The notes under the pieces: model-generated | What the model saw: only the letters and a program-made list of their open reading frames with translations | What the model was told of the DNA's origin: nothing | Database searches by the model: none | DNA from: Rosistilla carotiformis | GTDB taxonomy: Bacteria; Planctomycetota; Planctomycetia; Pirellulales; Pirellulaceae | NCBI RefSeq assembly: GCF_007753095.1 | Contig: NZ_CP036348.1 | Span: forward strand, 5,371,411-5,435,410 | Reading direction: 5' to 3' | Length of the DNA: 64,000 nt | Program-made: the position numbers and the translations under genes | In this document: positions 18,815 through 27,239 of the stretch, in pieces | Layout: each line of letters begins with the position of its first letter | Position numbering within the stretch: position 1 is the stretch's first letter

Positions 18815-21022
18815 CTATCGCCGGAACAAAAACTCTTTGGCGTTCAGCAGCGCCCAGGCGAGGTCTTCGACGGCGGTACGTCGATCCGACGCGTTGTCGA
18901 TCAACTGCGCCGCCCGTTGGCGTTCGGCGTCGCTCGGCGGACGTGTCAGCGCGGTCCAGTAGAGTTCATCGGCGATCTCGGCTCCGCTGAGTTCCGATGC
19001 CGCCAAGCGGGCGATCCGGTTGCTGCGCGACGCCAGACGTTGATTCAGTCCTTCGCCGATCAACATGAAGACCTGCTTGAGCGTCGTTTCGTTGGAACGT
19101 TCGCAATCGCAGGCCAGGATCCGCTCCGGTTTGCCAAACGTTTTCAAGAACCGATCCCCCAACTGAAGCCTCGCGTCCCGTTTGCGCCGCTTCTGAACAC
19201 CGGGAATCTGCGTCGCGCGAATCCCCTTGGGATACCCATCAAACGCTGCTGGATCGTCCAACACATCGCTCTGCAAATCGAGCAGCACTTCAGCCGGCAA
19301 GCGTCGCACGATCGCGTGGGAGTAACTGGTTTGATCGTGCGCGTTGGTGGCGTTGGGGAGCGCCGACAACTGGTAGGTCTGCGAGTTCATGATCTCGCGG
19401 ACCACCGCGCGGAGATCGAAGTTCTGTTGCACGAAGTGATCGGCAAGATACCGCATCAGTGGCGGGTTGCTTGCGGGATTGGTCAATCGGAAATCGTCGA
19501 TCGGATCGACAAGCCCGATCCCCATCAGGTGATACCAGATGAAGTTGACCTGCGACTGGGCGAACAGTTCGTTGTCCTCGGTCGTCAACCAATCCGCGAC
19601 CGATTGCAAACGATCCTTGCGCGCCTTTTCATCTAACGTCGGTCCGCCCAAGAACTTCGGGGGAGCGACCTTGCCGGTCGTGGGATTCTTGACTTCCGCC
19701 TGCTTCGAGACCAGCACGACCTGTTCGCCGACAAACTCGTTTTTGTCCAGCTTGTCCTTCCGTTTGTTTTCCCCCAGTTCGTAATCGAGCTGCGAAAACA
19801 GACTCGACCACTGGTAATAATCGCTCTGCGTCCAATGATCAAACGGATGGTTGTGGCACTTGGCACACTGCAGCCGCGTTCCCAAGAACAGCCGCGCCGT
19901 CGTCTCGCCACGCGTCGCCGGATCGCGATTGGCCCGGTAGTAATTCGCCGCGGGCTGGTCGTACGTGCTGCCAACTCCCGTCACAAGGTCGCTGACAAAT
20001 TCAGTCCAAGGGCGTCCCGATGCGATCGCATCGCGAATCCAGCCATGAAAAATCTCGACACCGTTTTCATCGAGAACCTTCTCTTCGGTTCGCAGGACGT
20101 CGGCCCACTTGAGTGCCCAGTAGTCTGCAAATTCAGTCCGCGATAACAGCTCGTCGATCAGACGCCGGCGTTTGTCCGATCGCGTATCGCTTGCAAACTG
20201 TTGTGCCTCGGTCGCCGTTGGAGCTCGTCCGATCGCATCCAAATACGCGCGGCGGATGAAGACGTTGTCATCGCACAGCGGCGACGGATTGATCCGCAGA
20301 CGTTTCAGTTTGTCCCAGACGAAACGATCAATCGAATTATTGATCGGTGGCGCGTCCCAGACGAATTCGGGACGGGCATCGATGAATGCGATCGAGACCG
20401 GAACTTGCATGTTCAAATAGCGAACGATCAGCGTGGTTTCGCCTTGGGCGAGTCGAGTGACTCGGCCGCCGGGGCTGATCTCCGCGATCAAGTTCGACAA
20501 TTCATAGCAGGCGCGATCGGTGACATCGCGCGACGTGCCGTCGGACAGTTGCGCGATAACCTTCAATTGCAGATCGGTCTGCGGCGCGGCGACGACAGCT
20601 TCCGGTGGCGTCACATCCAACTGGATCACATGAGCGGCATCGGGCGAAGGTGCCGGAGCTCCTTGTTGCAACCACTCTTTGATCACGCGGTACTCCTGCG
20701 AATCGGCATCGAAGCGAATCCCGCCGCGATGCGCCGCAGCCCCCGTCGCCTTCTGCAGGATCAAACTCGCATCGGGAGCCAACACGTTGACGCGTCGGCC
20801 GCGCGCTTCTTCGACCAGAGTCCGGAAGTCATCGCGTGGATTCTGTCCACGCAGCGACAGCTTCAGCCCCCCTTTGCCATTGAGATTGCCGTGGCAGGTT
20901 CCCAGATTGCAGCCCGCTTTGGACAACACCGACATCACATCGACAGCAAACTCTGGCGACTGAGCAGGCAGCGAACCGGCAGCAACGATCAGCAATAGGG
21001 CAATGGGAAGGCGAAACATCAT
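18815..21022 (-). CDS. Planctomycete DUF1549/DUF1553 (PSCyt2/PSD1) protein
   Basis: A 735-residue secreted protein with a signal peptide (residues 1-20). A first cytochrome-like segment has CNLGTCH (38-44). A Big2-type Ig-like domain follows (about 135-215), then DUF1549 (about 230-430) with CAKCHNHP at 386-393, then DUF1553 (about 480-720). This order is typical of a very large planctomycete family. Family members are predicted to bind heme and often sit next to DUF1501 sulfatase-like partners; no such partner is present here. The biochemical role is not established. The start is one of two adjacent ATG codons at 21022. Confidence 0.9.
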   Translation of the reverse strand: MMFRLPIALLLIVAAGSLPAQSPEFAVDVMSVLSKAGCNLGTCHGNLNGKGGLKLSLRGQNPRDDFRTLVEEARGRRVNVLAPDASLILQKATGAAAHRGGIRFDADSQEYRVIKEWLQQGAPAPSPDAAHVIQLDVTPPEAVVAAPQTDLQLKVIAQLSDGTSRDVTDRACYELSNLIAEISPGGRVTRLAQGETTLIVRYLNMQVPVSIAFIDARPEFVWDAPPINNSIDRFVWDKLKRLRINPSPLCDDNVFIRRAYLDAIGRAPTATEAQQFASDTRSDKRRRLIDELLSRTEFADYWALKWADVLRTEEKVLDENGVEIFHGWIRDAIASGRPWTEFVSDLVTGVGSTYDQPAANYYRANRDPATRGETTARLFLGTRLQCAKCHNHPFDHWTQSDYYQWSSLFSQLDYELGENKRKDKLDKNEFVGEQVVLVSKQAEVKNPTTGKVAPPKFLGGPTLDEKARKDRLQSVADWLTTEDNELFAQSQVNFIWYHLMGIGLVDPIDDFRLTNPASNPPLMRYLADHFVQQNFDLRAVVREIMNSQTYQLSALPNATNAHDQTSYSHAIVRRLPAEVLLDLQSDVLDDPAAFDGYPKGIRATQIPGVQKRRKRDARLQLGDRFLKTFGKPERILACDCERSNETTLKQVFMLIGEGLNQRLASRSNRIARLAASELSGAEIADELYWTALTRPPSDAERQRAAQLIDNASDRRTAVEDLAWALLNAKEFLFRR

Positions 21023-21164
21023 GAAAACGCTGGCAGGATGGAGTTGGGGGGAGGCACCGTCGGGGGAGGATCTATGATAACGCCTCCCCCTGCTCGGTTC
21101 TACTTGGAATTCGCTCCGGCAGCGTTTGCATTGGTCCCCAACAAGGGCTGACCGATTGAACTGC

Positions 21165-22619
21165 TTAAAACGTCAATCGGAAGACTTGGCTGGCGGTCAC
21201 GATACTCAGTGGTTTCACTCGCAGCGTACGGGCTCGCAGGTCGTGATGGAAGCGGCCGATCAAGGTCTGGTTTTGGAACATCTCCGGCGGCAGCAACTGC
21301 AACAAATGACAACTGGCCGGCTCTTCGGCCTGTCCCGTTTCGGTGAACACGATCCGCGTCTTGGCGGCATCTTCGACGACCAGATCGTCGCCAACCTTGC
21401 CGATCTGAGCATAGTTTAGTGCCACGATCGGTCGCCGGTCAGCCAGCGGCGACTTCAGATGCGTCTTGATCGTCTTCAGGATGGTGGCGAAATCGCTGTG
21501 CGCGTGCCGGCGGACGGCTTGCAAATCGGAAGCCTCAACGGGGCGTGGCGTGAGCGCGTCCCAACGGATTCGCGGATTGATGTCCCCCGGATATAGGCAG
21601 AGTTCAGGAACTTGAGCGATCTGAAAAAAGCTGTCCTCCGCTTTGACAAATTTCAGGGCTTTGTAAGGCCGGAAATTTAGAGTCAGTCCGATCTGGCCGT
21701 CCCCTAGATTCATCCAGATTCCGGTGTCGACAAGTTCCCGCCGCGCGATGTCGTCGTAGGAGTTGAAGGCGAGTTGAATCAGTTCGGCATTTTCTTGAAC
21801 CAGCCCCGCCTCTTTTAACTCACGTAACTGCCACGCATGCCCCAGCCAAGCCGCAATCGTCGACTGCGTCTCCGCGGCGAGTTCGGGGTCGGCCAGTCGA
21901 TCGTTCAGATAGCTGCGGCCGTTTTTGATCAACGCGTTTAATTGAGTCAATTGATCCAACGCCTGGCTGTAGATCGCTTCGCGCTGCTGTGGTGCGACCG
22001 AGGAATCAAAGCCGCCGTCGTCGCCAGAGAACAGTTTCGTATAAGCGTGCAGCGCCGATTGGGCGCCGGGCAGATAGGCGTTCCCCAGTTGTTTGGCTTG
22101 TTGTTCGATGTTCTTCGCAGTCTTGGCGTTGGTGTTCCCCATCCCCGTGCGAATCAATTCGTGAGTCAATTGTTCCAGCAGCGTCAGGCCGTCCAATTGA
22201 GCTTGGATCTTCTTCTTTAGAGCCGACTTGTTGACCTTCCGAGGCTTGGTCGCATCGGCTTTCTTTTTCTCCACCCGCTGTTCCAACTTCTCCCGCTTGG
22301 CGGCAAGGTCTTCGGGAACCGAAGCCACAGCGAATGGCTTGCCGTCGGTAAAGGCATACATCAGCCCGATGCAATGCTTACAGGGAAACTGACGGCTGGG
22401 ACAGGAGCAGCGGTAGGTGACTTTGCCCGGCGTGATGAAGTCGCACGAGCAGTGATAGTTCGTCCGTCCGCTGCCGCTACACTCGCCAAACAGGATCGTC
22501 TCGTCATCGCTCTTATGCAGCGCGACGAACTTTCCTTTGACCAACAAACCGCGCCCGTTACTGATCGCGTTACTGTTGGGCGCCTCCGAATCTACAAACG
22601 TTTGGTCGATTGAAATCAT
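21165..22619 (-). CDS. SWIM zinc-finger domain protein
   Basis: The 484-residue protein carries a SWIM zinc finger of the pattern CxCx6CxH (C71, C73, C80, H82; YRCSCPSRQFPCKHCIG) near its N-terminus. A Lys-rich linker (about 110-145) leads into a long helical region without recognised motifs. SWIM fingers bind DNA or protein partners. In many bacteria such proteins sit next to MoxR ATPase and VWA-domain genes, which are absent here. No signal peptide is present. It appears to be a single-gene unit. The 25-bp dispersed repeat lies about 69 bases upstream of its start. Function unknown. Confidence 0.85.
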   Translation of the reverse strand: MISIDQTFVDSEAPNSNAISNGRGLLVKGKFVALHKSDDETILFGECSGSGRTNYHCSCDFITPGKVTYRCSCPSRQFPCKHCIGLMYAFTDGKPFAVASVPEDLAAKREKLEQRVEKKKADATKPRKVNKSALKKKIQAQLDGLTLLEQLTHELIRTGMGNTNAKTAKNIEQQAKQLGNAYLPGAQSALHAYTKLFSGDDGGFDSSVAPQQREAIYSQALDQLTQLNALIKNGRSYLNDRLADPELAAETQSTIAAWLGHAWQLRELKEAGLVQENAELIQLAFNSYDDIARRELVDTGIWMNLGDGQIGLTLNFRPYKALKFVKAEDSFFQIAQVPELCLYPGDINPRIRWDALTPRPVEASDLQAVRRHAHSDFATILKTIKTHLKSPLADRRPIVALNYAQIGKVGDDLVVEDAAKTRIVFTETGQAEEPASCHLLQLLPPEMFQNQTLIGRFHHDLRARTLRVKPLSIVTASQVFRLTF

Positions 22620-22687
22620 GGGGACGATCCTTCGAGAAGCAGAGCAGGGAAAAGGGGGACGAACCAGCCAGCACGAATTTTTCTAGT

Positions 22688-22712
22688 TTAACCACGTGGG
22701 CATCGCCCCGCG
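22688..22712 (-). repeat. 25-bp dispersed intergenic repeat, copy 2
   Basis: Second copy of the block at 16551-16575, with 22 of 25 identical positions and the same orientation. It is about 69 bases upstream of the SWIM gene start, close to the 62-base distance of copy 1 from the antitoxin start. The similar placement hints at a shared upstream element, but two copies are too few to decide. Confidence 0.6.
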
Positions 22713-22763
22713 CGTCGTGCCAGGTGTAGTCTATGTTTTAAGCTGATTCGCCTAAACTCCAAC

Positions 22764-22806
22764 GCGGACTAGCCCTGGCGGGCGTGCATTACGCCCCGTA
22801 GTCCGC
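22764..22806. repeat. Compound intergenic hairpin
   Basis: An 8-bp perfect outer stem (GCGGACTA at 22764-22771, complement at 22799-22806) encloses a 6-bp inner stem (GGGCGT at 22780-22785, ACGCCC at 22791-22796) with a 5-base loop. No T run follows on either strand, so it is not a standard terminator. It lies between the T5orf172 and SWIM genes and may be a REP-like palindrome or a structured RNA. The rest of 22620-22921 contains only the 25-bp repeat. Confidence 0.6.
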
Positions 22807-22921
22807 TGGGCAAGTAATCCAGTTTGTGGCTGTCTCCAAATCGCCCCTTGCTTGTGGACGATAGATGTCTAAGAAGTTTTCGTAAACCAACATAGGGATC
22901 CGAAACCGTTTACGCCCCTTT

Positions 22922-24451
22922 TCATGCATTGGCAGTATCTGCTTCAGACTCATAGGTCGAATCGATCATATCTCTGTCTTCGTCGGTCATCGCAAGTGTT
23001 GCGTGATATTGATCGGCTTCGGGTTCGATCGTGAATGGACCCGCAGTGAAGGGGATGGTGTGTTGTTCGTCGTCTTGCAGGCCTTCGACGAGATCAATGA
23101 TCTCTTGAATCGAGACGCGGAAGAACTCTTTGCGTAGGTTGACTCCGTTGACTCTGCGATCATGGAACGCGCGATGGAGGGCGTTTTCCAAAGCCGGCGC
23201 ATTGGAACTTTCCAGCATCATGTGGACGTCGAACGGGAAGGGAACCGATGCGTCGCCAAGTTCTTTGATGCGGTCCATGGGATCAAGTCGCCTCGACATT
23301 CCGATCTTGAAGACTTGATCGCCGAAACTGCCGATGTTGCTAATCACGTACACGTGCCCCGATTTGGTTTGCTGAGCCATCGACAGGGCGCGTTGGCCCT
23401 TCGACTCGGCTTCCTGCAGTCGACGTCGTAATTCTTCCACTTCAGCGGAATGCTCGTCTTGAGTTTGTGCTAACGCTTCCGCCAAGGCCTTTTCAATGGC
23501 TTGGCGTTCCGCGGCGATCCGTTTCATTTCGCGTTCGAGTTCTCGTTCGGCTTTTTGTTCTTCTTTTATTTGTTCTCTAATTCGTGCCTGCTCGGCCCGC
23601 TGAACTTCCTTGCGAACGGCTTCTGCATAGTCTTCCTTTAGTTCTGCTTTGACGGACTCATAAATTTCGGGAGCAACCGGATATCCTTTCTTGCCGCAAA
23701 ACTCGACCGCTTTTTCATACGTCTCAAGCATCTTGTGGTAGTTGTTGGAATTGAGTTTGGATTTGATTCCTTTGCGAACTTCGGTCAGATATCTGGTTGC
23801 GATTGCTGCGGCGGCGGCCTCGTACGAGGCGATCTCGGTCTTTGCCTCGTCCATTGCTTCTGACACGCGAACTTGAACAGCAGACCATTCATTGGCGGCA
23901 TTCTCGCGATCGGTGGCCGCATCGGCCAATAGTTTGGCATGCTGTTGCTGAATCGTCGCGGTTTCCACAGCGATGAGTTGTTCAAAATTCGATTGAAAAC
24001 CGTGGCATTGCTGTACAAGTGCGGTCTGTTGGCGATGCAATTGTTCCGCCGTTTGCATCAGGTCGCGATAGGATTGCCGCAGTTGGTTAGTTTTGGTGCC
24101 GTGATCTAACCAGTACGCGCCCCCCGCAAGTCCCAGTACGAAGGTAGCACCTGCAACGATGAACAACCCGATGGAAATCCCCGAGAACGCCGCGCCGATG
24201 AAAGCAATTGCTAGGGCGACAACTGCAACTAAGCCAACCAGTTGCACCTTGGGTTGACTCAACGGAGTGCCGGAGCCGACAAACTCGACCAATACAGGGG
24301 GGAGCTCGGGCCGGACGTTGAAGTAATCGACGAACAGCACGCGGGTCTTGCATTTCGGGCAGATTTGCGGGGTCGCAAACCTTTGTTCCTCCGCAGTAAC
24401 CTTCGTTTTGCACTCGGGGCAATAGCGTGTGACTTTTTGTGGTTCGTTCAT
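22922..24451 (-). CDS. Membrane-anchored zinc-ribbon, coiled-coil, T5orf172 (GIY-YIG-like) protein
   Basis: The 509-residue protein has four parts. A zinc ribbon uses C11-x2-C14 and C31-x2-C34. Two membrane segments lie at about 70-90 and 93-114. A long charged coiled coil spans about 120-360. A T5orf172/MUG113-type domain lies at about 366-447 (HVYVISN, VFKIGMSRRLDP, LENALHRAF, EFFRV), followed by an acidic tail. T5orf172 domains belong to the GIY-YIG nuclease superfamily and are common in phages, mobile elements and some defence contexts. The ATG overlaps the stop of the upstream broken WYL regulator by four bases (ATGA), so the two were probably one operon. A membrane-tethered nuclease or sensor is an inference; catalytic activity is unproven. 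Confidence 0.82.
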   Translation of the reverse strand: MNEPQKVTRYCPECKTKVTAEEQRFATPQICPKCKTRVLFVDYFNVRPELPPVLVEFVGSGTPLSQPKVQLVGLVAVVALAIAFIGAAFSGISIGLFIVAGATFVLGLAGGAYWLDHGTKTNQLRQSYRDLMQTAEQLHRQQTALVQQCHGFQSNFEQLIAVETATIQQQHAKLLADAATDRENAANEWSAVQVRVSEAMDEAKTEIASYEAAAAAIATRYLTEVRKGIKSKLNSNNYHKMLETYEKAVEFCGKKGYPVAPEIYESVKAELKEDYAEAVRKEVQRAEQARIREQIKEEQKAERELEREMKRIAAERQAIEKALAEALAQTQDEHSAEVEELRRRLQEAESKGQRALSMAQQTKSGHVYVISNIGSFGDQVFKIGMSRRLDPMDRIKELGDASVPFPFDVHMMLESSNAPALENALHRAFHDRRVNGVNLRKEFFRVSIQEIIDLVEGLQDDEQHTIPFTAGPFTIEPEADQYHATLAMTDEDRDMIDSTYESEADTANA

Positions 24452-25141
24452 TTCCTCATACTCGCAGCATTGTTGATTCGTGAAGGTGATTCGCTCGTGT
24501 AGCGGGCGAGCATTGGCTGAAGTTCATCGGCGACTTCTTTACCAAGTGACTCGGGTTCGATGACATCGGCGGCTGGGCCGAAGCTGAGGATGTAGCTTTT
24601 GATTTCGATCGTGCCGGTCAGCGTGACAGGCTCGATCGAGCAGGCTGAGCGGTTGGCGATGAAGGTCGCTCCGCTCTCTCCAATCCCCAGCGTGATTGCG
24701 TCGAGTACTCGGTCGCTCGTGGCAATTCCCATCCCCTGGCGAGCAGAGGAGCCACGGGGAGATCCGCTCAAAATAATCGGCTCGGTTGCCGCCAAGTGCG
24801 ACTCGGATCTTCTCAAATGCCGAGCGAGAGGCGTCGCCGATCAACATGTGTTCGAAACCGCTGGTGCCGGCCTGGCAGATCATCAACGAGAACGCTTCGT
24901 CGTAGGTGAACCGCACCTGCTCGATCGCATCGCGGGACAAACTGTAGGTCTTGCGACCGTTCTGCTCCGCGTACTCTTGAATCGCGAACGGGAGCTGACG
25001 CAGCCCCGCGATGTCTCGGCGGACCGTTTTCTCACCGACGCCCAATGATTTCGCCAGCGTCTTGATGGTCTCGTCGCGTCGTTCGAGCGCAATCAACCGA
25101 AGTAAACGAGGATGACGCGTCCGCTGCGTTCCCATGCTCAT
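24448..25141 (-). pseudogene. Broken HTH-WYL transcriptional regulator
   Basis: The first frame (from the ATG at 25141, with an AGG-type ribosome site) encodes a DeoR-like HTH (TIKTLAKSLGVGEKTVRRDI) and the start of a WYL-family regulator up to FERISPWLLCSPG. The coding sense then moves to another frame near 24725-24750 and continues as SDRVLDAITLGIGESGATF, ending with the family's typical C-terminus SYILSFGPAADVIEPESL. Between IEPVT and SYILSFGP, most of the central WYL domain found in relatives is absent. So there is both a frameshift and an internal deletion of roughly 100 or more residues. A sequencing error could explain the frameshift but not the deletion. WYL proteins often control defence or stress genes. 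Confidence 0.78.
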
Positions 25142-25541
25142 CAACCAAACCTCGCTTCCAGGCCGTCATGGCTCACCGCTATACCCCATGTGTGCATTGC
25201 GCACCCCAACAAAACGCGTCGACAAGAGTATAACGGAACATTTACCCGGTAGAGGGGGTGGTGGACATAGCATGTCCAGGTGGGCGGATTCTGGGAGTCG
25301 GGCAATCGCTCTGTCGGGGCAGAAATCAGGAAAAAGAGAAGTCCGGAAGGGGACAGCCACAAATTGATGGGCAAAGTGTGGCGATCCCTGAATCGGCTGA
25401 TTCCAAATCGGATAGCGCAAATCAAGAAGGTCAGCACCCTCTGACGCGAATTCCTGAAGAGCGAACTCCCGCCGATCCGTCCGCAGGATCGCAGCGGATC
25501 CCATTGGTCAGGGCGGAATGCTTCATGCCGGCGAAAGCTGT
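25142..25541. other. Gene-free stretch with a possible REP-like remnant
   Basis: These 400 bases separate the broken WYL gene from mtfA. Frames on both strands are low-quality and have no ribosome sites. One segment, GGGGACAGCCAC at 25349-25360 followed by AAATT, resembles the ends of repeats linked to REP-type (IS200-like) transposases, but no transposase or clear hairpin accompanies it. It may be decayed mobile DNA. Confidence 0.35.
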
Positions 25542-26321
25542 CTAGCCGTCGAAACGCGCGGCGGGATTTTGGCGATAGTATTGCGAGAAGATCTCGTACA
25601 GTTCCGGATGTCGGGCGCGGAACGATAGCGGGCGTTCGAAGAAGGTTTCGGTAGCGACGGCGAAGAATTCGCTGATGTGTTCGGCACCGTAGCTGTTGAT
25701 CACGTGAGAGCGTCCGTATTGGCAATCGGATACCAATTGCTCGTACTCGCGCTCGATGAGCGTCTGCCAGCGGTCGAACTGAGCTTGCGTTTCCAGTGGC
25801 GGCGTTCCGTCGACGACGCGTCCGTTGAGCATATCCAATTGGTGTGCAAATTCATGCAGCACCAGATTGTTGCCATCATTGTCGCGGTCGCCATCTTCCA
25901 AAACATCGGCCCAGGAAAGGATGACTGGGCCGCGATACCAGGCTTCTCCCTCGCGATGCGAGACGCCTTCCATCAGGACTCCCGATCCGATCGACGTGTG
26001 ACTCTTGGCCGTATAGACATCGGGGTAGACAAGGATCGATTGAACCATGTCGAAGAATTGGTCGGTGAAACCGAGGCACAGCAGGCTGATATGAGCTGCA
26101 ATCGTGACCTGAATCTCATCGTTCATGGTAAGGCCCTTGCAGCCTTCCCAATTTTTTTCCGCGATGAAAACGAGCGCGTCCGATTCGAGCTTGGCTCGCT
26201 CGTCGTGGTTTAAGCGATGCACATATGCGACATTGCGATCGATGATCTGCGACCAATCGCTGCGCATCGGTTGGCGACGGATGCGGTCGCGCCGCCGCTG
26301 TGCAATCCAGCTAAAAATCAT
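25542..26321 (-). CDS. mtfA: MtfA-family zinc metallopeptidase
   Basis: The 259-residue protein matches the M90 (MtfA) family in length and motifs. The zinc site HEFAH is at 156-160 within LVLHEFAHQLDM, and a downstream glutamate-containing segment EFFAVATETFFE (218-229) supplies the expected further ligand region. In E. coli MtfA binds the Mlc repressor and acts as an aminopeptidase affecting glucose-PTS control; Mlc is not visible here, so that role should not be assumed. It starts 11 bases after the stop of the upstream BON-domain gene, suggesting a two-gene operon. No signal peptide is seen. Confidence 0.9.
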   Translation of the reverse strand: MIFSWIAQRRRDRIRRQPMRSDWSQIIDRNVAYVHRLNHDERAKLESDALVFIAEKNWEGCKGLTMNDEIQVTIAAHISLLCLGFTDQFFDMVQSILVYPDVYTAKSHTSIGSGVLMEGVSHREGEAWYRGPVILSWADVLEDGDRDNDGNNLVLHEFAHQLDMLNGRVVDGTPPLETQAQFDRWQTLIEREYEQLVSDCQYGRSHVINSYGAEHISEFFAVATETFFERPLSFRARHPELYEIFSQYYRQNPAARFDG

Positions 26322-26332
26322 CGCGGCGTCGC

Positions 26333-26986
26333 CTATTCAGCCGTACCGGGTGGGATCAGTTCGCCCATCCCTTCGACGATCAAGCGGTTGTCGACTTTCG
26401 AAACGCCCGGTTCCAGCCGCATCAGCATCTCGGCCATGCGACGATCTTTTTCCGTCTTCACGTTGCCGGTCAACACGGCGGTGCGGTCGTTCATTTTCAA
26501 ACGAACTCCCGTCATGCGAGCGGCAACGGGCAGATTGACCAAACGATTTTGAATCGTCGATTGCCGCGAAGCGACACTCGGACGGTCGACTTCGATTTCG
26601 CCACGCAGACGCGTGCGGAAGGTTTTCTGGTTCGATTGCGACTGGCCTTGAGCCCCCGCACCAAACAATTGATTGAACGCCCCGCCAAAGGCTCCCCCCA
26701 TCGCACCGCCACCCAGCGCGGTCGATCGCGCCCCGGTGGTACCTTGAGCCGCTTGGCCTTGAGTGCTGAAGGCCGGGACGGTGCTCCCGGAGGCACCGAT
26801 CGTGCCATCGCGCTGCACGCCCCCGGCAAACGCCGACTCCACGTCGATCGTCGCCAGTTCGCCACCGGCGACTTGTCCGGTCGTCGACAGGTTTCCACCC
26901 GCATTGCCGGCGTTGCCTTGAGCGTGGACGCTCGCGACCAATCCAGGTGCTGTCAGCAGGATGCTGATGGTGATCAGATGCTTCAT
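26333..26986 (-). CDS. Secreted BON-domain protein
   Basis: The predicted protein has 217 residues from the ATG at 26986, chosen because it begins directly with a signal peptide (MKHLITISILLTAPGLVASVHAQ region); an upstream in-frame start at 27064 would bury it. The middle is a Gly/Ala/Gln-rich linker (GGGAMGGAFGGAFNQLFG). A BON-type domain spans about 125-205, with the typical VRLKMNDRTAVLTGNV and GVSKVDNRLIV strands. BON domains associate with membranes or phospholipids in periplasmic proteins such as OsmY. It probably shares a transcript with mtfA downstream. Confidence 0.78.
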   Translation of the reverse strand: MKHLITISILLTAPGLVASVHAQGNAGNAGGNLSTTGQVAGGELATIDVESAFAGGVQRDGTIGASGSTVPAFSTQGQAAQGTTGARSTALGGGAMGGAFGGAFNQLFGAGAQGQSQSNQKTFRTRLRGEIEVDRPSVASRQSTIQNRLVNLPVAARMTGVRLKMNDRTAVLTGNVKTEKDRRMAEMLMRLEPGVSKVDNRLIVEGMGELIPPGTAE

Positions 26987-27239
26987 CGGGTCGGGCTCGA
27001 AATGCGGTTTGAAACTTATACAACCATCGTACTCATGATTTCGGCTGTAACGAACATGCCGCACAAACTTGCGGCCTCAGTAACCGATTGTATCGATTAT
27101 CGCAAAGATACCAAAAATTATTCTTACACCGGCCAAGTACGGCAATAACTCCACGAATAGAATGAATTCACGCGAGCACTCCCCCCAAATTGAGATCGCT
27201 CCACTCGATAACTCAAATCTTCCAACAGGTGGCCTTCGA

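Follow-up and report, generated by a model that had tools for sequence, protein, structure and literature searches.

The nuclease gene and the remains of its upstream regulator

The window, that is, the whole stretch of 64,000 nucleotides that was analyzed, comes from a marine bacterium and contains on its minus strand a two-gene cassette made up of a gene for a 509-residue predicted membrane-anchored nuclease and, directly upstream, the damaged remains of a WYL-type regulator gene (Table 1). An earlier note on this DNA had described a zinc ribbon, two membrane segments, a long coil, and a T5orf172 domain within a single protein, and motif, hydropathy, AlphaFold, and Pfam analyses agreed with this layout. 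Pfam placed MUG113 (7.3e-20, residues 381 to 456) and T5orf172 (1.6e-15) at the C terminus, while several zinc-ribbon models matched the N terminus, all of them below the cut-off, and a CxxC-x16-CxxC motif (spacing counted by eye) is present there. Two hydrophobic segments were found with our own hydropathy script. The AlphaFold model, built on 32 aligned sequences (mean pLDDT of 78, pTM of 0.40, with blocks of 55 to 73 in the membrane part), consists of the ribbon, a helix at residues 67 to 89, a long helix at residues 94 to 232, more helices, and the GIY-YIG domain; as modeled, the second membrane helix continues into the coil. The GIY-YIG motif residues were invariant or, for E422, at least 90% conserved across 32 homologues. 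In Foldseek searches against solved structures, the top match was the GIY-YIG nuclease Slx1, with a probability of 1.00 but an E value of 0.035, and nothing reached 0.001.

Table 1. Features of the cassette, its borders, and the partner gene of related loci (window positions unless a locus is named)
Feature	Position	Strand	Evidence
SWIM zinc-finger gene, conserved left border	21165..22619	-	Pfam SWIM; 98% (G001) and 95% (G002) identity
Segment without counterpart at the site in two congeners	22846..25324		blastn vs L053, L054, L062, L063
Two-gene cassette	22924..25159	-	only part of window 20001-27000 aligning with the 10.4-kb R. sallentina contig (blastn)
SNIPE/PD-Lambda-1-like membrane-anchored GIY-YIG nuclease (putative)	22922..24451	-	ORF, PADLOC, Pfam, 88% identity in R. 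sallentina
GIY-YIG nuclease domain (T5orf172/MUG113), residues 365-456, including E422	23084..23359	-	Pfam, alignment, Foldseek
Divergent DUF4041-like helical hairpin (predicted), residues 226-258	23678..23776	-	hhalign 91.5%, score 35.6
Second predicted membrane segment, residues 91-109	24125..24181	-	hydropathy; start of model helix 94-232, local pLDDT 61-67
First predicted membrane segment, residues 64-82	24206..24262	-	hydropathy; model helix 67-89, local pLDDT 55-73
Zinc ribbon, residues 11-34	24350..24421	-	motif; sub-cut-off Pfam; beta strands in AlphaFold model
ATGA overlap (regulator stop/nuclease start)	24448..24451	-	ORFs; also in R. sallentina L064
WYL remnant, C-terminal frame (WCX part)	24448..24816	-	deletion point 24622/24623
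WYL remnant, N-terminal frame, HTH kept, then frame lost	24539..25144	-	ORF, Pfam, PADLOC, alignment
M90 metallopeptidase gene, conserved right border	25542..26321	-	Pfam Peptidase_M90 3.1e-80
Partner gene, examples	L071:7452-8123, L079:7011-7685, L069:6909-7568; 12 further loci		

The regulator is split into two frames, of which the first matches the PADLOC WYL model (1.2e-8) and the second Pfam WCX (1.3e-6). Its intact form was found in Rhodopirellula sallentina SM41 (L064, NZ_ANOH01000005.1), among the best 80 of at least 573 confirmed matches in genome contigs, where a 340-residue HTH-WYL-WCX gene (WYL at residues 147 to 215, WCX at 244 to 321) lies directly upstream of the nuclease gene. 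Compared with this gene, the window regulator has a 324-bp deletion of codons 175 to 283 that removes the larger part of WYL and half of WCX, and, ahead of the deletion, a separate 2-nt frameshift. The earlier note was therefore right about the ATGA overlap and about a frameshifted regulator that had lost most of its WYL domain, and the outcome that it had named as refuting, a regulator intact after error correction, is ruled out because the deletion and the frameshift are separate lesions, for which a single sequencing error is insufficient. It had also proposed translational coupling of the two genes; the overlap is there, but the coupling itself has probably been lost, since translation from the regulator's own start would be halted by the frameshift at 24539, ca. 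88 nt short of the nuclease start.

A conserved pairing of WYL and T5orf172 genes had been named in the earlier note as support for its reading. An intact WYL gene does precede the nuclease in R. sallentina, but as a general pairing this did not hold, a WYL gene being found beside the nuclease at only 2 of 113 loci (the window and R. sallentina), a count that includes the window and SNIPE, contains L014/L074 and L093/L145 twice, has ca. 1.5 kb of flank or less at 24 loci (L144 to L167), and comprises several contigs that stop near the gene (242 nt upstream in L067). From this low number, we take the WYL pairing to be local, rather than a two-gene system of general occurrence. Two weak partial WYL matches occurred, downstream on the opposite strand in L091 and ca. 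7.5 kb away in L099, and the genes adjoining other WYL relatives of the order included no consistent partner. No palindromic operator common to the window and L064 was found: the window has 7-nt arms 3 nt apart at 25262 to 25278, L064 has two other pairs of different sequence, and the number of such pairs is about that expected by chance according to a rough estimate. The sigma-70 promoter scan returned 0 matches versus 1.1 expected.

Kinship with SNIPE and the planctomycete branch

SNIPE, the same system as PD-Lambda-1, is a membrane-bound GIY-YIG nuclease of Escherichia coli that cleaves phage DNA while it is being injected (PMC13190303). Two PADLOC models of PD-Lambda-1 matched the window nuclease, one (PDLC03976) at an E value of 4.8e-83 over residues 231 to 496 and the other at 6.3e-82. 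The domain order, regarded in the earlier note as unusual, is thus not a new combination, a fusion of unrelated domains being ruled out by the match over residues 231 to 496, and on sequence grounds we consider the protein a divergent relative of the published SNIPE family. By tblastn, 185 plasmid records and 38 phage records contained relatives, and query coverage stayed below 80% in every case; the common part is the C-terminal half, and identity among the rows listed was ca. 38 to 56% over part of the protein only. Of the 40 plasmid rows listed, 37 carried a DUF4041 annotation, and one phage row was annotated PD-lambda-1. The PD-lambda-1 protein of phage record PV340555 (L052) had the expected letter at 9 of 9 SNIPE positions taken from the text of PMC13190303, and we take it to be SNIPE or nearly so because of this agreement. 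Its E414, the predicted catalytic residue of SNIPE (PMC13190303), aligns with E422 of the window nuclease, which accordingly has the C-terminal GIY-YIG domain (MUG113/T5orf172) with a catalytic glutamate that characterizes SNIPE. The membrane anchor, also characteristic, is provided by prediction, from the two hydrophobic segments and the model helices.

In SNIPE, DUF4041 is located between the anchor and the nuclease domain. Pfam DUF4041 (PF13250) did not match the window protein at E values of up to 1; among the relatives scanned, it was present in SNIPE, L015, L016, and L018 and unmatched in L012, L013, and L014. With a model seeded from the Pfam coordinates and rebuilt on 75 sequences, matches at an E value of ≤1e-4 were obtained for 77 of 113 proteins, and the window protein gave 0.035. 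The comparison by hhalign of 29 DUF4041-poor proteins (among which L093 and L145 are identical) with the 77 canonical ones aligned 33 to 34 columns with probabilities of 88 to 91.5% (scores of 36.3 and 35.6), versus a maximum of 3.9% (score of 16.6) in 30 column-shuffled controls. Given this difference, the window branch appears to have a short, divergent DUF4041, and the complete absence of the domain was discarded, as a remnant was found by profile comparison. A stretch of ca. 70 residues preceding DUF4041 in SNIPE was not found in the window branch with its own model; we rejected it as a distinctive loss, as 39 of the 77 DUF4041-positive proteins likewise gave no match to it (E > 1e-3).

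A tree of 71 of 112 rows that we chose (29 DUF4041-poor proteins, with the duplicate L145 left out, and 42 others; the fragments L157, L162, and L163 were excluded) placed the DUF4041-poor proteins together on a single branch (29 rows, each from a planctomycete), which had a support of 100/100 and a long stem (0.74) and lay apart from the 42 DUF4041-type rows (100/100, with the root set arbitrarily on SNIPE). Within it, the window protein, that of R. sallentina, and that of a third genome, G029, formed a tight subgroup (100/100). Canonical SNIPEs also occur in planctomycetes, for instance, in rows L015 to L018 and L146 to L156. Three types of head were seen in the reduced branch: a zinc ribbon, a GYF_2-like domain plus a zinc ribbon, and a single transmembrane (TM) segment. 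The second type is found in L066:7809-9521 and L067:243-1874, where the N terminus is GYF_2-like (a resemblance below the cut-off, at 1e-4, from a scan that covered L066 only) and is followed by a zinc ribbon and a membrane segment. Among the best 80 of 138 matches in viral contigs, L176:4350-7679 encodes a 349-residue nuclease that is of the reduced-DUF4041 type by reading, flanked by a phage-like HTH gene and an ORF resembling a serine recombinase (by reading); to judge by L176, the branch may not be limited to planctomycete chromosomes.

The reduced domain raises the question of what is recognized. An anchored nuclease of the same ancestry could have changed its target to other viruses or to DNA arriving by other routes (plasmids, transformation), with siphovirus injection going unrecognized through the reduced DUF4041 and the zinc ribbon or coil recognizing something else instead. 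The reduction in all 29 rows of a long-stemmed branch and the variety of the heads speak for such a change, but the GIY-YIG core is conserved in 32 of 32 aligned rows, and variation of the N terminus and DUF4041 is usual among SNIPE homologues (PMC13190303, section 9), so that no new target is needed. We consider a changed target unlikely, although the best placed of the alternatives.

The single-TM members of the branch have a neighbor of their own. In all 15 of those in the tree (single TM assigned by hydropathy for 14 and by reading for L080), a related gene of ca. 220 residues lies directly upstream on the same strand. This partner was not seen with the 14 zinc-ribbon members (the check in L067 being limited to 242 nt upstream), only a ribbon-only resemblance in 5 of them, and it is not beside the nuclease of the single-TM member on viral contig L176. 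In the 392 genomes of the phylum, it was full length in 2, both times adjoining the nuclease, with a ribbon-only match in a third. Three members scanned in each of Pfam and NCBIfam gave no match above the cut-off. The predicted structure (mean pLDDT of 91.5) combines helices with a winged helix and ends in a zinc ribbon, and Foldseek returned weak matches to regulators of the Fur/PerR and ArsR types (best E value of 0.013, none at 0.001); as modeled, the partner may act in regulation or as a sensing subunit. The long L080 protein (663 residues) was rejected as a fusion of partner and nuclease, as the two are in different, overlapping frames and the long ORF is an artifact of an upstream start. 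Against a model of the partner's ribbon, the window zinc ribbon scored 25 to 27 bits, and the zinc-ribbon SNIPEs other than those of the window, L012, L013, L064, and L072 did not exceed 20.6. The background consisted of 49 fragments, mostly partners and SNIPEs; one of the few unrelated ribbons among them, the ribbon-plus-TM protein L175, reached 38 bits, and the next reached 11. The window ribbon may, on this weak resemblance, descend from the C-terminal ribbon of the partner. Another gene in the upstream position is lexA, which directly precedes a zinc-ribbon SNIPE on the same strand at L093:2157-2771 and L101:1100-1819 (by Pfam LexA in L093 and similarity by reading in L101; L145 repeats L093).

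One tentative idea, which we hold to be rather doubtful, is that in the planctomycete SNIPE branch, the recognition of invaders shifted from DUF4041 to exchangeable parts, either the ribbon and two-helix head or the upstream partner, with WYL control in Rhodopirellula. It is made less probable by viral contig L176, where the nuclease has no partner.

Selection, genomic site, and distribution

Compared with R. sallentina, the nuclease gene had a dN of 0.07 and a dS of 0.95 to 1.28. The dN/dS ratio of the whole gene was 0.054 (NG86) or 0.075 (YN00), an average over the entire divergence with which a very recent loss of function stays compatible; it was 0.037 or 0.027 in the nuclease-domain part and 0.13 to 0.14 in the less constrained ribbon/membrane part. 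The nuclease is under purifying selection. In G029 (L012:8487-10019, 71% identity), the nuclease gene contains an in-frame TAA and has no WYL neighbor, and to judge from its sequence, it is perhaps a pseudogene.

The earlier note had left open whether the pair is a relic or a variant of a regulated nuclease system. The loss of a control gene agrees with the intact gene in L064 and with the defense context, but a relic does not agree with the low dN/dS ratios. In a decaying remnant of a defense system, the nuclease would be following a regulator already gone, in line with the WYL lesions and the in-frame stop of the G029 relative; the 509 codons are open, the motifs are intact, and the ratios are low throughout and lowest in the nuclease part, which makes decay improbable.

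At the site of the cassette, the flanking DNA blocks shared with two congeners, G001 and G002, end at 22637 or 22845 and restart at 25342 or 25325, and the nuclease is absent genome-wide from both. What these genomes have instead, between the SWIM and M90 genes (L053:1-7200 and L054:1-7500, respectively), are a CBASS cyclase (1.6e-113), an E2 gene (3e-46), and an HNH-SAVED effector (1.1e-139) in G001 and the candidate defense pair PDC-M23A (7.5e-97) and PDC-M23B (E = 0) plus an E2 gene (5.4e-46) in G002, together with a remnant of CBASS in the form of a shortened cyclase next to a transposase-like ORF (by reading; 99.5% DNA identity to G001). Ca. 320 bp of the 3' end of M90 is duplicated at the far border of the site in G001. 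The SWIM-M90 interval looks like an exchange site for defense genes. In two more distant genomes (L059 and L060), M90 was not found beside SWIM. The GC content of the cassette (0.545 versus a window mean of 0.570) is within range, 23 of 124 segments being lower. In R. sallentina, the neighbors of the cassette differ from those of the window, only the two genes being shared, and a 1,241-residue NTPase resembling PD-Lambda-4_A (3.3e-22; L064:6116-9841) is encoded ca. 1.7 kb downstream of the pair. The defense surroundings that the earlier note had named as support were found, as CBASS and PDC-M23 genes at the congeners' site and as the PD-Lambda-4_A-like gene in R. sallentina.

Among 60 relatives, 11 had a match to the window protein at an E value of ≤1e-3, as did 31 of the 392 genomes drawn from the phylum (the window's own genome included in both counts), several of these matches resting on the GIY-YIG domain or the ribbon alone, and this patchy occurrence fits a defense gene. 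That the protein is instead a housekeeping membrane protein of the host with no defense role is highly improbable: L093 and L101 share their neighbors (lexA-like upstream and response-regulator-like downstream, by reading), as in vertical inheritance, but the gene is patchily distributed and absent from congeners, other defense genes occupy the same site, and relatives occur in plasmid, phage, and viral-contig records.

Proposed function and comparison with known systems

Together, these results lead us to regard the window protein as a divergent putative SNIPE-type anti-phage nuclease whose WYL control was lost, with a probability of roughly 0.75. Weighing against this reading are the absence of a Pfam DUF4041 match and the shortness of the profile alignment, the modest local confidence of the model in the membrane part, the weaker constraint on the ribbon/membrane part, the in-frame stop of the G029 gene, and the occurrence of a WYL neighbor in two species only, with no common operator found. 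The two membrane helices would hold the protein in the inner membrane, with the zinc ribbon, coil, and nuclease domain in the cytoplasm, both termini being placed on the same side because the number of helices is even. As phage DNA crosses the membrane, the coil, the DUF4041-like hairpin, and/or the zinc ribbon would bring the GIY-YIG domain to it, and the DNA would be cut; cutting at injection is inferred from SNIPE. The ancestral overlapping WYL gene upstream would have controlled expression. A ligand-relieved repressor is its likeliest role, by analogy, because CapW represses CBASS, with WYL-dependent release upon infection (PMC9122588), and BrxR-family WYL proteins adjoin many defense systems (PMC9122601). 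In the window genome, what is left of the regulator lacks both an intact reading frame and the presumed ligand-sensing part, and the nuclease gene persists by itself.

The loss of WYL beside a conserved nuclease is informative given that capW in a CBASS operon could not be disrupted by its authors (PMC9122588). Here, the loss may be tolerated because the membrane anchor keeps SNIPE off the host DNA, and a nuclease that is tethered, and thus harmless, may not need its switch. A branch with nuclease and anchor but with a DUF4041 the size of a hairpin also makes it testable which part separates phage DNA from self.

Among known systems, CapW and BrxR (CBASS and BREX; PMC9122588 and PMC9122601) have the same wHTH, WYL, and WCX architecture next to a defense gene. 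The R. sallentina ortholog has all three domains, the window gene does not, and adjacency to a defense gene is found here too; the orientation differs in that the WYL gene lies on the same strand and overlaps the nuclease start, while capW is on the opposite strand. The terms DUF4041, GIY-YIG, and T5orf172 are absent from the main text of PMC9122601. PDC-S57, a PADLOC candidate with a T5orf172-like domain, matched residues 362 to 462 (3.9e-20), thus covering the GIY-YIG region alone, and PD-Lambda-1 scored ca. 200 bits higher on the window protein.

In the main text of PMC13190303, zinc, WYL, and Planctomycet have 0 occurrences, and in the main texts of the literature searched, no paper was found that combines Planctomycetes and DUF4041; planctomycete members may be among the 474 homologues of PMC13190303. 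That paper describes E. coli SNIPE as requiring DUF4041 and proposes that the domain binds DNA as well as the tape measure protein. According to its section 9, 59% of the homologues have one TM segment, 7% have two, and 34% have none, the N-terminal region is the most variable, and DUF4041 is less conserved than the nuclease. The window protein is like E. coli SNIPE in its N-terminal anchor, helical middle, and C-terminal GIY-YIG domain (MUG113) with the catalytic glutamate. It differs in its anchor (two predicted helices and a zinc ribbon versus a single helix with a periplasmic N terminus), in a DUF4041 apparently shrunk to a divergent hairpin, and in the WYL gene that R. sallentina pairs with this type of nuclease. 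With the SNIPE homologues that have other heads (PMC13190303, section 9), it shares a variable N-terminal adapter, of which the two-TM form is already known.
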